A stretch of DNA of 50,760 nt, taken from the NCBI GenBank assembly GCA_021107945.1, contig JAIORV010000073.1:1-50760 (forward strand), written 5' to 3'. The notes beneath the pieces are model-generated. The model was given only the letters and a program-made list of their open reading frames with translations. It searched no databases and had not been told where the DNA came from. Every line of letters starts with the position of its first letter. The first letter of the stretch is position 1. This document shows positions 10,511 through 50,495 of the stretch, piece by piece. The stretch comes from Vulcanimicrobiota bacterium. Its GTDB lineage: Bacteria > Vulcanimicrobiota > JAJTBE01. The position numbers and the translations under genes are program-made.

Positions 10511-10665
10511 CACCGCAAAGACCACAAAGGGGAACGGATTATGGAGAACGGAAATGTAGGAGGGACGTCCCCGTCCCGATTAACGGATAACGGAGATCGG
10601 ATGACGGATGTTTTTGACCATAAAAAATCTCTGCGACCTCCGCGTCCTCTGCGATGAATAGTTAT
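10511..10665. repeat. dispersed repeat element with inward GCAGAG modules
   Basis: The left part holds CACCGCAAAGACCACAAAGG. The middle has GTAGGAGGGACGTCCCCGTCC (10558 on) with the following ACGGATAACGG run. The right part is the opposite-strand module CTCTGCGACCTCCGCGTCC, ending in TGAATAGTTAT (10655-10665), the complement of the recurring end motif GTAAYTRTTCA. It fills most of the gap between nadA and the epimerase gene. The left flank TGATGACATTTTTTTTCACCG recurs at 50607-50627. Confidence 0.75.
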
Positions 10666-14824: not shown

Positions 14825-14960
14825 CAGGAAAAGAAAGCATGTAAATCCATAATCCCTGCCGGGGCACTCACCGCGCTTGCCCTTTCCACTTGCACGAAAA
14901 ACACCCCGGGATTTACCTTTATTTATATAGTAGTATTTTTAATGTTTTTGTTCATTTTTT

Positions 14961-15130
14961 GTAACTATTCAGCACCTTTTTACGGGGGATTTCTAAACCT
15001 TGATTTCACAACGTTTTAGGCTGGTCAGGAGACCAGCCTCTACCCAAATATCATGGAATTAATAATGATAAAAAGTGTAAACTTTACTTAAAACTCTGCG
15101 CCCTCTGCGAACTCTGCGGTGAATAATTAC
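14961..15130. repeat. MITE-like element with 11-bp terminal inverted repeats
   Basis: The left end is GTAACTATTCA (14961-14971). The right end (15120-15130) is the complement of GTAATTATTCA, a 10/11 match. Inside are the GGCTGGTCAGGAGACCAGCC palindrome (15020-15039), followed by TCTACCCAAAT, and an opposite-strand module ACTCTGCGCCCTCTGCG (15092 on). Both modules recur elsewhere in the window. At 170 bp with no coding capacity, it looks like a non-autonomous mobile element. It abuts the CoA-transferase stop. The flanking 14825-14960 has only a weak long-loop inverted repeat, GTAAATCC/GGATTTAC. Confidence 0.7.
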
Positions 15131-15140
15131 CATTTTTTTT

Positions 15141-16448: not shown

Positions 16449-16539
16449 GTTGCCCTCCTTTATAAGATGTGAATTTTACATGAGATCCCCCCGGTTTAAT
16501 GTTAAGCTTGCAATAATTATTATATAGTATCTATATTTG

Positions 16540-16654
16540 TTATGTATTCAGACCCATCCTGTAGGAGGGATTTCCCAACCCCGATTTCAGGCCGTTTCCA
16601 GGTTGGTCAGGAGACCGGCCTCTACCCAAACAGTGGGGTGGTCTGAATAATTAC
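16540..16654. repeat. MITE-like element with terminal inverted repeats
   Basis: The left end TTATGTATTCAGACC (16540-16554) is matched by the complement of 16640-16654 (GTAATTATTCAGACC), with the ten inner bases identical. The interior carries GTAGGAGGGATTTCCCAACC followed by CCCGATTTC, and a GGTTGGTCAGGAGACCGGCC palindrome. Close copies occur at 43845-43945 and in part at 14961-15130 and 35938-35992. The rest of 16449-17116 is AT-rich, with no supportable gene. Confidence 0.72.
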
Positions 16655-16985
16655 TATATTTGTCATTAATTCATTTTATTAATACATCAAACCGGTTATC
16701 GATTCCTGCTGATAGGGATTGTTATTATTTCTGTATTTATTCAGGCCTATGAATAGTCTGAAAAACTTTACTTCCGGGAAGGAATATTGACGCAAGTTAT
16801 TTAACATAGTAAAGTAAGTTTTATGATACTCAATGATAGATATTATAGAATATAGAATATTTAAAATTATCAATTTTCATTTATTTGCTATTTTGTTTTT
16901 TTGGCAATAATAATACTTGTATAAAGTATTTTTTTAATTCATATGTAAATGAATAGCCATGACGGAAAACCAGATATTTTGCATG

Positions 16986-25276: not shown

Positions 25277-25315
25277 GTGATTATTCACCGCAGAGAACAT
25301 AGAGGACGCAGAGTT
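25277..25315. repeat. GCAGAG-type dispersed module with element end
   Basis: GTGATTATTCACCGCAGAG opens at 25277, three bases after the peptidase stop, and continues AACATAGAGGACGCAGAG. GTGATTATTCA is one copy of the recurring element end; a matching right end was not located with certainty. Confidence 0.7.
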
Positions 25316-26988: not shown

Positions 26989-27235
26989 GTAACTGTTCAG
27001 CTTTCATCGTTTTTTTTCTGCTATTCCTCTAATTCTCAACCATAAAGAACGCCAAGAGCACGAAGATACGGAGATACGGAGATAAAAATTAGAAAATTCT
27101 CTGAGTCCTCTGTGCCCTCTGTGGTTTTAGATAGTCCTTTGTATCATCTTCGATTCGCTCATTTATTACCAATAGAAAACAGAGATTTTATCCGGGATTC
27201 TCCTTGTTTTAATAACCTCTGCGGTTAATAGTGAC
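26989..27235. repeat. MITE-like element with terminal inverted repeats
   Basis: The left end is GTAACTGTTCA (26989-26999). The right end (27225-27235) is the complement of GTCACTATTAA, a diverged copy. Inside are AAAGAACGCCAAGAGCACGAA (in part), GGAGATACGGAGA, and on the other strand TCTGAGTCCTCTGTGCCCTC. The element ends exactly where the peptidase stop codon (27236-27238) begins. Confidence 0.6.
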
Positions 27236-27844
27236 TTAGAAATTTCTGTTTATATCCTTCAGTTTCAGGACGTAAGGCAGAACTCCTTTTTCACCATACT
27301 TGTCTTCAACTTTCAGAATGAATTTGTAACCCACTCCGTAAATGGGATCAGCGGTTCGATGAATTTGACGCGCGAGGGTATGTGCACCGCTCCACTGCAA
27401 CGCTTTCACTTCCACCCATCTTGCAAGTCCTTCCCTGAGTATCCTTGTCTGCCCCGGGCAGTTTTCATCCTGCCATCCATGAGTCATTTCATGGCACATT
27501 GTTCCATAAAACCTATCTTTTCCCACATCATCGAGCATATATATGTAATTTACACCCTTTCTGTAGCGATGGAGACCGATGATGTTTTTATGATAAGGGC
27601 TAGCTTTTGTTATTTTATCCATTTCCTTTCCTGTTACCAATTTGATCTCAAAAGGCCTGTGAAATACCATTCCAAGCTTTGATCTCAGTGACTCTTTTGC
27701 TTTTTTAAACACTTTCATCGCATCTTCGTGCTTATTTATTATAGTGGGTATATCATCGGCATTGACTTCAGCAACGACAAAAGCAAGAGCAATAAATGCC
27801 GAGACTAAAATTATCATTAATTTTTTCAGAGTATTCACCTTCAT
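27236..27844 (-). CDS. secreted DA1-like metallopeptidase
   Basis: 202 residues. A signal peptide ends near residue 29 (VAEVNA). The zinc motif is CHEMTHGWQ (His118, Glu119, His122), followed by RILREGLARWVEV with Glu138 as probable third ligand. HEMTH with the downstream EGLA.WV pattern resembles the plant/bacterial DA1 peptidase domain, without the LIM part. It probably acts in the periplasm or outside. The start ATG overlaps the stop of a short upstream frame (ATGA), described separately. Confidence 0.75.
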   Translation of the reverse strand: MKVNTLKKLMIILVSAFIALAFVVAEVNADDIPTIINKHEDAMKVFKKAKESLRSKLGMVFHRPFEIKLVTGKEMDKITKASPYHKNIIGLHRYRKGVNYIYMLDDVGKDRFYGTMCHEMTHGWQDENCPGQTRILREGLARWVEVKALQWSGAHTLARQIHRTADPIYGVGYKFILKVEDKYGEKGVLPYVLKLKDINRNF

Positions 27845-29895: not shown

Positions 29896-30040
29896 TAAGG
29901 ATACTATTCAGACCTCCTACTGCAACTCGATTTTCGTGGCAAGATGCCACTCCTGCAAAGGGGGGACTGAACATTTGCGAATATTTGCGTTATTTTTTTA
30001 TGGAAAGATGTTGCTCCTGAAAGGGAAAAACTGAATACTT
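29896..30040. repeat. repeat element with two internal ~40-bp direct copies
   Basis: It begins CTATTCAGACCTCC and ends with the complement of AAGTATTCAG (30031-30040). Two diverged direct copies lie inside: GGCAAGATGCCACTCCTGCA... ending ACTGAACA, and GGAAAGATGTTGCTCCTGAA... ending ACTGAATA. The open frame crossing it reads only repeat. The gap to the polymerase gene (30041-30254) is AT-rich. Confidence 0.6.
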
Positions 30041-35880: not shown

Positions 35881-35992
35881 TCAACGCAGAGAGCGCAGAG
35901 AGCGCAGAGATATATAAATCCGGATAATGGTTTTTATATCGTATGTATTCAGTTTTATCCTATAGGAGGGATTTCCCAATCCCGATTTCATG
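35881..35992. repeat. GCAGAG tandem plus GTATTCAG-type module
   Basis: AACGCAGAGAGCGCAGAGAG continues GCGCAGAG (35883-35910). It is followed by GTATGTATTCAG at 35940 and TAGGAGGGATTTCCCAATCC with CCGATTTCATG after it. It fills the convergent gap between coaE and gatC. Confidence 0.7.
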
Positions 35993-40696: not shown

Positions 40697-40742
40697 GTAA
40701 CTGTTCACCGCAGAGAACGCAGAGGACGCAGAGAGCACTGAA
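40697..40742. repeat. GCAGAG-type module with element end
   Basis: GTAACTGTTCACCGCAGAGA opens at 40697 and continues ACGCAGAGGACGCAGAGAGC. The copy is truncated on the right. The rest of 40453-40784 is AT-rich and holds no gene. Confidence 0.7.
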
Positions 40743-43810: not shown

Positions 43811-43844
43811 ATTATCATATCCTGGTTATAGTTTTTTAATTAGT

Positions 43845-44004
43845 ATGTATTCAGCCCCATTCTGTAGGAGGGGTTTCCCAACCCCAATTTCATGGCGTTC
43901 CCATGCTGGTCAGGAGACCAGCCTCCACCCAAATTTAATGGAATTTGTAATTGTCTGAAGTGCTAACTTTATTAAAAACTCTGTGTCCTCTGTGGTAAAA
44001 AAAC
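43845..44004. repeat. GTATTCAG-type element with opposite GCAGAG module
   Basis: GTATGTATTCAGCCCCATTC opens near 43845, followed by GTAGGAGGGGTTTCCCAACC and a GCTGGTCAGGAGACCAGCC palindrome (43903 on), TCCACCCAAA, and CTCTGTGTCCTCTGTGGT at 43980. The layout matches 14961-15130 but the right end is less clear. Confidence 0.7.
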
Positions 44005-44022
44005 ATATGGGCTTAAAAGTAT

Positions 44023-45123
44023 CTATTTACTTATCACCGAGGTCAATCTTTGTACTTTGAAAAATACTCCCGGACTATTGCTGACGTCAATCCCGCTTGC
44101 CAACATCTCCCATACAATTGTTCCGTCAGGTGTAACCTCAAACATTGTTGACTCATGTAAATCGGTGCGAACGGATACGAAGAGGGTGTTCCCATTTGGC
44201 AGCCTGTTTGCATCACGGGTTGTACGCATATTCTCCCGGGCGTATGTCCATACCGTTTCTCCTGTGGTCCGGTCAATCTCTACCCCTATATATGGAGAAT
44301 CATGCTGAAGCGCTACTATCAAATGATTGTTCGCGAGTATCTTGGGTTCATGAGGATCGACAGTCTCACCGAATATAGACCAGTCAAACTCCCATACCAC
44401 ATCACCGTTAGAATCAACCTCCGTAGTCAGATTGAAATTCCTCAAACTCACAAGGGTGTTACCATTCGACATTCTCGTTACCGCATTGGCGTGAGTCCAA
44501 CCCCCATCCCAAATTCCGATGTAGGGATCCTTGTAATAATCCTCGCCGGCAAACCAGGACCATACCAGATTCCCCTGGTAATCAACTTCTTTTGTCTGGG
44601 CGTCATCCACGGTATCATTGTTTCCAAAATTATAAACCGTATTCCCGTTGGAAAGCCTGTCTGCATCATGGCTTACTTTCTTGTCCAGATGCTCCCATAT
44701 TACATTTCCGCTCCCGTCGATTTCACGGATGCCATAACCGGGAAGAACTATAAGTATATTCCCGTTATCCAGCAATTCCGCATCAAACCCGGGCTGTGTA
44801 TATGAACTTACATCCGCGGGAAGGACATATTCCCATACGACATTTCCCTGCATATCCACCTGCACGACACGGGGACCATTCCCGGAATATGGGAACAGAG
44901 TGTATCCATTGTATGCCTGGGATTGATCGTATGTAATAACGTTGAGCCCGGTTGAGGTGGGCGTGGGTGTGGGCGTTGTTGTTGGTGTTGTTGTAGCTGT
45001 GGGGGTTGTTGTTGGTGATGTTGTGCCACCTCCGCCACTACTCCCGGAGCATCCAACCAGGACGATGGCCGGGATGGACAGGATTAAAAACAGAACCATC
45101 AGAATTCTTATTTCTCTTTTCAT
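44023..45123 (-). CDS. propeller lipoprotein, arylsulfotransferase (ASST)-like
   Basis: 366 residues with a strong GGAGGTTGC site. A signal peptide ends in the lipobox LVGC (Cys25). A Gly/Ser and Thr/Pro linker (TTTPTATTTPTTTPTPTPTS) follows, then a six-bladed propeller with repeats such as LSNGNTVYNFGN, DSNGDVVWEF, LPNGNTLFVSV and DGTIVWEM. The pattern of VWEY/VWEH/VWSW repeats with conserved His (VSHDADRL, THANAV) is like arylsulfotransferases. The catalytic histidine was not confirmed, so enzyme activity is uncertain. Outer-membrane or inner-membrane periplasmic location. Confidence 0.75.
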   Translation of the reverse strand: MKREIRILMVLFLILSIPAIVLVGCSGSSGGGGTTSPTTTPTATTTPTTTPTPTPTSTGLNVITYDQSQAYNGYTLFPYSGNGPRVVQVDMQGNVVWEYVLPADVSSYTQPGFDAELLDNGNILIVLPGYGIREIDGSGNVIWEHLDKKVSHDADRLSNGNTVYNFGNNDTVDDAQTKEVDYQGNLVWSWFAGEDYYKDPYIGIWDGGWTHANAVTRMSNGNTLVSLRNFNLTTEVDSNGDVVWEFDWSIFGETVDPHEPKILANNHLIVALQHDSPYIGVEIDRTTGETVWTYARENMRTTRDANRLPNGNTLFVSVRTDLHESTMFEVTPDGTIVWEMLASGIDVSNSPGVFFKVQRLTSVISK

Positions 45124-50222: not shown

Positions 50223-50495
50223 GACCGCGCATCCAATCTTCGATAATGACAAACCCGGCGTTACCGGGCCAGTTAGCTCCAACCAGGTAGTTCTCCGGCA
50301 CACAAGAGGTCTTGTTTAGGGCTGCTCCGTTCCCGTCCTGACCCGGTTCACAAGTTCCTGTTGCGGAGAGCCCGACCTTCAACACCACTTCTCCCGGGCT
50401 GTCCCGACCAAGCAAAACCTCAGATGGACATCGACCCTGCTATGGAGGGTTATGCAGGCTACAGGGCACCCCCGGCTCCCCGTCTTAGCGCGGTC
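50223..50495 (-). ncRNA. ffs: signal recognition particle RNA, long Alu-domain type
   Basis: 273 bases. The ends GACCGCGC and GCGCGGTC pair exactly (50488-50495 with 50223-50230). The Alu part has GGTGCCCTGTAGCCTGCA and AGCAGGGTCGA with ATCTGAGG, as in Clostridium-type SRP RNA. The S-domain tip is CAGGACGGGAACGGAGCAGC, a GGAA tetraloop closed by compensated pairs, followed by GTGTGCCGG and CTGGTTGGAGCTAACTGG. SRP RNA scaffolds Ffh for co-translational targeting to the membrane. The two Alu and S domains together are diagnostic. Confidence 0.95.

Follow-up and report, generated by a model that had tools for sequence, protein, structure and literature searches.

Mosaic miniature elements with IS66-type ends in an uncultured Vulcanimicrobiota genome and their link to GxxExxY genes

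Introduction

Insertion sequences of the IS66 family are characterized by termini beginning with GTAA and by 8-bp target-site duplications. Mobile insertion cassettes are nonautonomous insertion sequences that carry a passenger gene, and REP and BIME repeats combine GTAG with a hairpin, often occur as facing pairs, and are intergenic. A bacterial MITE mobilized by an insertion sequence has been described in MITEAba12, which is moved by ISAba12 (PMC6382973).

The elements analyzed here come from a 50,760-bp stretch of contig JAIORV010000073.1 of a Vulcanimicrobiota bacterium (the window). They share with the IS66 family (NF033517/PF03050) the GTAA termini, the 8-bp duplication, and 10 to 11 of the 11 terminal bases of the IS66 transposons L268, L227, and L257; they differ from it in that the window elements have no transposase, the members span only 65 to 592 bp, the tips alone are in common, and no IS66 was detected in the same genome. 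Like MITEAba12 (PMC6382973), they are short and multicopy, lie in A+T-rich targets, have terminal inverted repeats (TIRs) and a duplication of fixed length, and are identical to the putative parent only in the TIRs. In contrast to MITEAba12, whose mobilizer makes 9-bp duplications, their interiors are strongly heterogeneous and mosaic, their ends belong to the IS66 class, and the cognate insertion sequence is absent from the genome. Related elements of the L205 type resemble mobile insertion cassettes in their insertion sequence-like ends, a 7/8 duplication, and a passenger replacing the transposase, but this passenger is a GxxExxY gene with inverted arms of its own, a combination that none of the papers searched described. 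The interior hairpins are like REP and BIME repeats in being GTAG-type, intergenic, and often arranged as facing pairs; they differ in lying inside IS66-type ends with duplications, and no RAYT gene was seen when 0.8 Mb was scanned with a crude motif. MITEs are a known kind of element, and the mosaic, IS66-ended form with GxxExxY arms is a new variant.

Results

The original prediction held that GTAAYTRTTCA bounds a family of elements with interchangeable interiors, to be read as MITEs or as mosaic REP repeats. The motif occurred well above chance level: with up to one mismatch, there were 14 sites in the window (shuffles: mean, 4.45; maximum, 11), and the full genome (5.56 Mb in 215 contigs) contained 269 exact sites compared with 11 for the reversed pattern. 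Ends of this family were also enriched in genomes of other phyla (47 versus 7, 49 versus 8, 24 versus 3, and 26 versus 10). A whole-genome self-comparison with the 170-bp element at 14961 to 15130 as the query, in which 40 of 448 candidates were scored, recovered at least 40 homologous copies with 76 to 100% identity. The ends were found to bracket homologous segments and, where paired, to be flanked by 8-bp duplications, in agreement with their proposed role as boundaries. The prediction withstood both of the refuting conditions set for it, and the GTAAYTRTTCA element family is real.

Inspection of the flanks, for which the statistics cover approximately 0.8 Mb plus 30 extracted copies, revealed an exact 8-bp target-site duplication. 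Among 25 copies of the 14961-15130 family, flanking direct repeats peaked only at 8 bp, where the mean identity was 0.65 (7 perfect and 4 with 7/8 matches), compared with 0.32 to 0.43 at the other lengths from 2 to 14 bp. In all of the sequence fetched, 39/233 end pairs up to 700 bp apart had 8-bp flanks matching at 7/8 positions or better, compared with 1/233 in an offset control in which the left flank was moved by one base; above 700 bp, end pairs showed no real duplication excess. One 1037-bp candidate, in L068, was discarded despite its perfect 8-bp match, as it traverses a gene reading as uvrC. The paired ends carry GTAAYTRTTCA in opposite orientation as TIRs and delimit elements of 65 to 592 bp, and no transposase gene was found in the duplication-verified elements. 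The 8-bp duplications at paired ends therefore identify these as short transposed units without a transposase, and the predicted MITE status is supported by their shortness, TIRs, fixed 8-bp duplication, and multiple copies. The GTAAYTRTTCA elements are MITEs. The A-type end was not found in viral contigs.

In the window, the query element at 14961 to 15130 (plus strand) is an intact 170-bp IS66-type MITE with a REP-type core and a GCAGAG right arm, flanked by a perfect duplication (CATTTTTT) at 14953 to 14960 and 15131 to 15138. Its TIRs, GTAACTATTCA at 14961 to 14971 (plus strand) and GTAATTATTCA at 15120 to 15130 (minus strand), both match the motif exactly. Between them lie a minus-strand GTAG-type hairpin, GGGTAGAGGCTGGTC-TCCT-GACCAGCC (15017 to 15044; read from the letters and common to the next element), and a GCAGAG-type arm of three 9-nt units (15094 to 15119, minus strand), of the type seen in the 5' arm of GxxExxY genes. 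The second intact element, of 115 bp, occupies 16540 to 16654 (plus strand); its left end has decayed to TTATGTATTCA, and its duplication, TATATTTG at 16532 to 16539 and 16655 to 16662, is perfect. Its core is 78% identical to 14966 to 15048 while its right end differs from that of the first element, and it includes a GTAG-type hairpin unit, TGTAGGAGGGATTTCCCAACCCCGATTTC (16560 to 16588, plus strand), belonging to the TGTAGGAG hairpins with compensating stems. As single strands, both elements fold better than shuffles (z of about -3), as expected because of their inverted repeats. A third, probable element (26989 to 27235, plus strand) is decayed and runs from GTAACTGTTCA to TTAATAGTGAC, with a CTCTGTG-type arm and a 6/8 duplication (TTTAAAAT/TTAGAAAT).

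These three elements account for part of the ends listed originally, with the coordinates of the second and third amended to those given here. The listed ends at 10655, 25277, and 40697 had no verified partner and are classed as solo, and the pair at 29896/30031 is weak. Each solo end carries a GCAGAG arm: ATAACTATTCA (10655 to 10665, minus strand), with a GTAGGAGGGACGTCC hairpin inside; GTGATTATTCA (25277 to 25287, plus strand); and GTAACTGTTCA (40697 to 40707, plus strand). Absent from that list were a solo left end, GTATGTATTCA (35941 to 35951, plus strand), followed by a TAGGAGGGATTTCCC module, and a decayed homologous copy at 43843 to 44023 (plus strand) whose right end bears a CTCTGTG arm. 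This copy is 84% identical to the 16540 element and 74.5% identical to the 14961 element; its ends are degenerate, and no clear duplication was seen at its flanks. The predicted intergenic or stop-abutting position holds for the window copies; the end at 25277 begins 3 bp past a stop codon, and the element ending at 27235 abuts a stop at 27236. Elsewhere in the window, a bacterial large SRP RNA was identified at 50225 to 50493 (minus strand; RF01854, 153.9 bits).

The interiors are built of three kinds of module, namely, GTAG-type hairpins, the GCAGAG arm, and nested insertions (for example, L049:549-1140), which have been recombined between the same ends, as had been proposed. The mosaic structure is demonstrated by the 14961 and 16540 elements, since these have a common core and different right ends and each is flanked by a perfect duplication of its own. 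In 0.80 Mb, TGTAGGAG occurred at 96 sites, compared with 42 for a reversed control pattern, and was followed by a hairpin at 83 of the 96 compared with 7% of random positions. The stems are compensating, with at least seven different ones (for example, GGGACG/CGTCCC, GAGGCT/AGCCTC, GTGGCA/TGCCAC, and GGGGTT/AACCCC). Both the GGCTGGTC and the TAGGAGGGATTTCCC module belong to these GTAG-type REP hairpins and have such stems. On the opposite strand, the GGCTGGTC palindrome reads GGGTAGAGGCTGGTC-TCCC-GACCAGCC, the same build as the TGTAGGAG hairpins, and the 16540 element is therefore a facing hairpin pair between IS66-type ends. For the interiors, with their GTAG-type hairpins, the "mosaic REP" reading was correct. 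The GTAGGAGGGACGTCC module, proposed as a family interior, is mostly a separate repeat that also lies off the ends (about 21915, 38325, and 46510).

GTAG-type REP hairpins of the TGTAGGAG kind were located in the window at about 10554, 21915, 38325 (minus strand), and 46510 and in loci L031 to L070 of the same genome; their density is about 120 per Mb, and many lie outside GTAAYTRTTCA elements. The nested example at L049:549-1140 spans 592 bp and has a 7/8 duplication; its multihairpin interior, judged by eye only, resembles an IS200/IS605-type remnant.

The GCAGAG module, noticed in the original prediction with its origin missed, is one arm of inverted repeats that bracket GxxExxY genes (TIGR04256, PD-(D/E)XK) in many phyla. 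A scan of 84,980 species with GTAAYTRTTCACCGCAGAG returned 38 loci in many phyla, against about 7 expected by chance (a rough estimate). At L115, one end is followed by an intact GxxExxY gene (TIGR04256, E = 1.2e-46) with GCAGAG units ahead of its start codon and CTCTGCG units after the gene, and at L125 and L105 a similar gene has been reduced to its start. The Vulcanimicrobiota genome itself has five GxxExxY loci, comprising two intact genes and three remnants (L144, L145, and L146) that lie between or beside GTAAYTRTTCA-family ends. The L205 element, of 538 bp, encloses a GxxExxY gene between two exact ends and has a 7/8 duplication; L185 has ends of the same type and an internally deleted gene; and L193 and L203 retain only the subterminal arms, with other interiors and perfect duplications. 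These loci form a series of intact, deleted, and replaced versions. GxxExxY was present in 13 of 18 genomes with the A-type end. No description of a link between GxxExxY and MITEs was found in the searched literature (GxxExxY, PF13366, IS66 MITEs, and repeat sequences), which hardly mentions this nuclease-like family, and the link is the part that a specialist would not expect.

Inverted arms were common at GxxExxY loci. For 48 loci, most of them from genomes selected for the A-type end, comparison of the upstream flank with the reverse complement of the locus's own downstream flank gave a mean score of 33.8, compared with 17.2 against the flanks of other loci and a largest mean of 22.5 in 5000 permutations. 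An arm score of at least 24 was reached by 79% of these loci and by 2.2% of 598 control ORFs. The letters of the arms vary by lineage (CCGCAGAG, CCACGAAG, CCACAAAG, CACAGATT, and GCGGATGAC) while the two arms of a locus stay complementary. Among eight plasmid records selected independently, by protein alone, four had strong arms (Gemmatimonadota, Bacteroidota, and Sphingomonas). GxxExxY was not found in phage records, and no homologue was found by sequence among solved structures.

GxxExxY genes often lie between codirectional genes in an operon-like, apparently unbroken context, as in L143:1477-1914 (after an HdrA-like ORF), L115:2532-2954 (histidine kinase/response regulator), L276 (a Sphingomonas plasmid, between fabD and fabG), and L275 (a Bacteroides plasmid, after radA). 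At L148, a direct repeat of about 16 bp (AGGAGAAAAATTATGA) flanks the arms; it includes a ribosome-binding site and a start codon and looks like a duplicated start of the neighboring gene.

The original prediction suggested a search for a transposase gene with the same ends. None was found in the same genome, and IS66 transposases with matching ends were found in others. IS66 genes in other genomes with the same ends and in genomes of the same phylum were scanned for inverted tips with 8-bp duplications, GTAA not being required. Transposon L268 has the ends GTAACTGTTCACGGC / GTAACCGTTCACGGG and the duplication AAAAAAAG on both sides; L227 has the ends GTAACCGTTCACGG (GTAACCGTTCACGGGG / GTAACCGTTCACGGCT) and the duplication AATAATTG; L228 has the ends GTAAATGTTCACT and the duplication GTTGCTAG; and L257, from the same phylum, has the ends GTAACCGTTCAGCCC and a 7/8 duplication (TTTTTCCC/CTTTTCCC). 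The matching end form elsewhere is GTAAC(C/T)GTTCA. The transposases of L268, L227, and L257 scored above the NCBIfam cutoff, and their ends have 10 to 11 of 11 terminal bases in common with the MITE ends. Inside the tips, the MITEs have subterminal variants, CACCGC and CAGCCC, that are similar to the two end types of IS66, CACGGC and CAGCCC; the two common continuations of the MITE ends (...TTCACCGC and ...TTCAGCCC) show this resemblance. The similarity is limited to about 11 to 15 terminal bases, and most IS66 loci examined had ends that were unresolvable or different (GTAAGCGG, GTGTGC, or GTACGTG). The Vulcanimicrobiota genome (98.6% complete) yielded no IS66 transposase, nor did tblastn find one in the fetched 0.8 Mb.

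The IS66 transposons L268:1967-4776 and L227:776-3352 (Desulfobacterales genome G164), with perfect 8-bp duplications, also carry a DruA-domain gene adjoining the transposase (PF14236, E values of 1e-31 to 5e-34); the searched literature contained no paper with DruA and IS66 together.

Discussion

The MITE ends begin with GTAA, are associated with an 8-bp duplication, and match real IS66 ends, the latter in other genomes only. From the ends and the duplication length, we strongly infer that IS66 is the mobilizer, and it is very likely that these MITEs were moved in trans by a DDE transposase of this family. Another DDE family making 8-bp duplications would be an unlikely agent. The candidate at hand is IS1595, whose transposases occur in the same genome. 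The tips of one copy (L071) bear an 8-bp direct repeat (AAACATAA); these tips, ATTGACTATG and ACTGATTATCC, are loosely like GTAAYTATTC shifted by one base. However, they lack a GTAA start and are out of register with the TIR, a second copy (L072) showed no 8-bp tip repeat, and the IS66 ends fit at 10 to 11 of 11 positions, so that IS1595 was rejected for having the wrong ends.

Spread of the whole unit as a REP/BIME-type repeat by a RAYT (HUH tyrosine transposase), with no classical transposition, would account for the GTAG-type hairpins with compensating stems in the interiors (83/96 TGTAGGAG sites versus 7% of random positions). HUH transposition leaves no target duplication, and the exact 8-bp duplications at the outer ends contradict it; the hairpins also stand alone, off the ends, at the three window positions given above for GTAGGAGGGACGTCC. 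This origin is highly improbable for the outer unit, where it is contradicted, and may apply to the interior hairpins. We give equally little credence to mobilization by the GxxExxY nuclease itself, with the elements as its deletion derivatives. It is true that inverted arms bracket these genes far more often than control ORFs, that the same ends enclose intact and deleted versions, and that the PD-(D/E)XK residues D71, E81, and K83 are conserved in three aligned GxxExxY proteins. However, a GxxExxY-type arm is missing altogether from many elements that have the same ends and duplications; GxxExxY arms without GTAAYTRTTCA had direct repeats in 9/39, no clear excess over the 13.7% in swapped pairs; and to our knowledge, a PD-(D/E)XK nuclease has no strand-transfer activity of its own. 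A search of the same genome for PF05635 (23S rRNA intervening-sequence protein) gave no match, a result made uninformative by controls that were equally silent.

Under the favored IS66 mechanism, the transposase would have recognized the short terminal repeat GTAAYTRTTCA, about 11 to 13 bp, and, by excision or copying, would have moved the unit into 8-bp targets rich in A+T. The interior would be free to vary because recognition would require little beyond the tips. The interiors are mosaics of GTAG-type REP hairpins, commonly in facing pairs, and of GxxExxY inverted arms of 9-nt repeats; some elements keep the GxxExxY gene, and others have lost part of it internally. Since no IS66 was detected in their own genome, the MITEs of this lineage may be relics whose activity has ceased. 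An autonomous partner in the same genome is usual for MITEs but not obligatory; the failure to find one fits relic MITEs and weakens only a claim of current activity.

Independent mobility of GxxExxY is unsupported, because arms without IS66-type tips show no clear duplication. We propose only tentatively that GxxExxY genes could represent, in coding form, a widespread mobile cassette with lineage-variable, mutually complementary arms of 9- to 10-nt units, that the environmental repeats of the CTCTGCG and CTCTGTG types, including GCAGAG, could be its remains, and that it was perhaps packaged between IS66-type ends in some lineages and moved in trans.

These findings define a repeat family present in high copy number in an uncultured genome, together with its likely class of mobilizer, and they suggest that very short IS66-type tips suffice for carrying unrelated interiors. 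The tie to GxxExxY offers a first explanation for a repeat of many phyla (CTCTGCGTCCTCTGCGGTGAA and its kin), and the covarying inverted arms predict that the GxxExxY protein, or the RNA, recognizes or depends on the paired arms.
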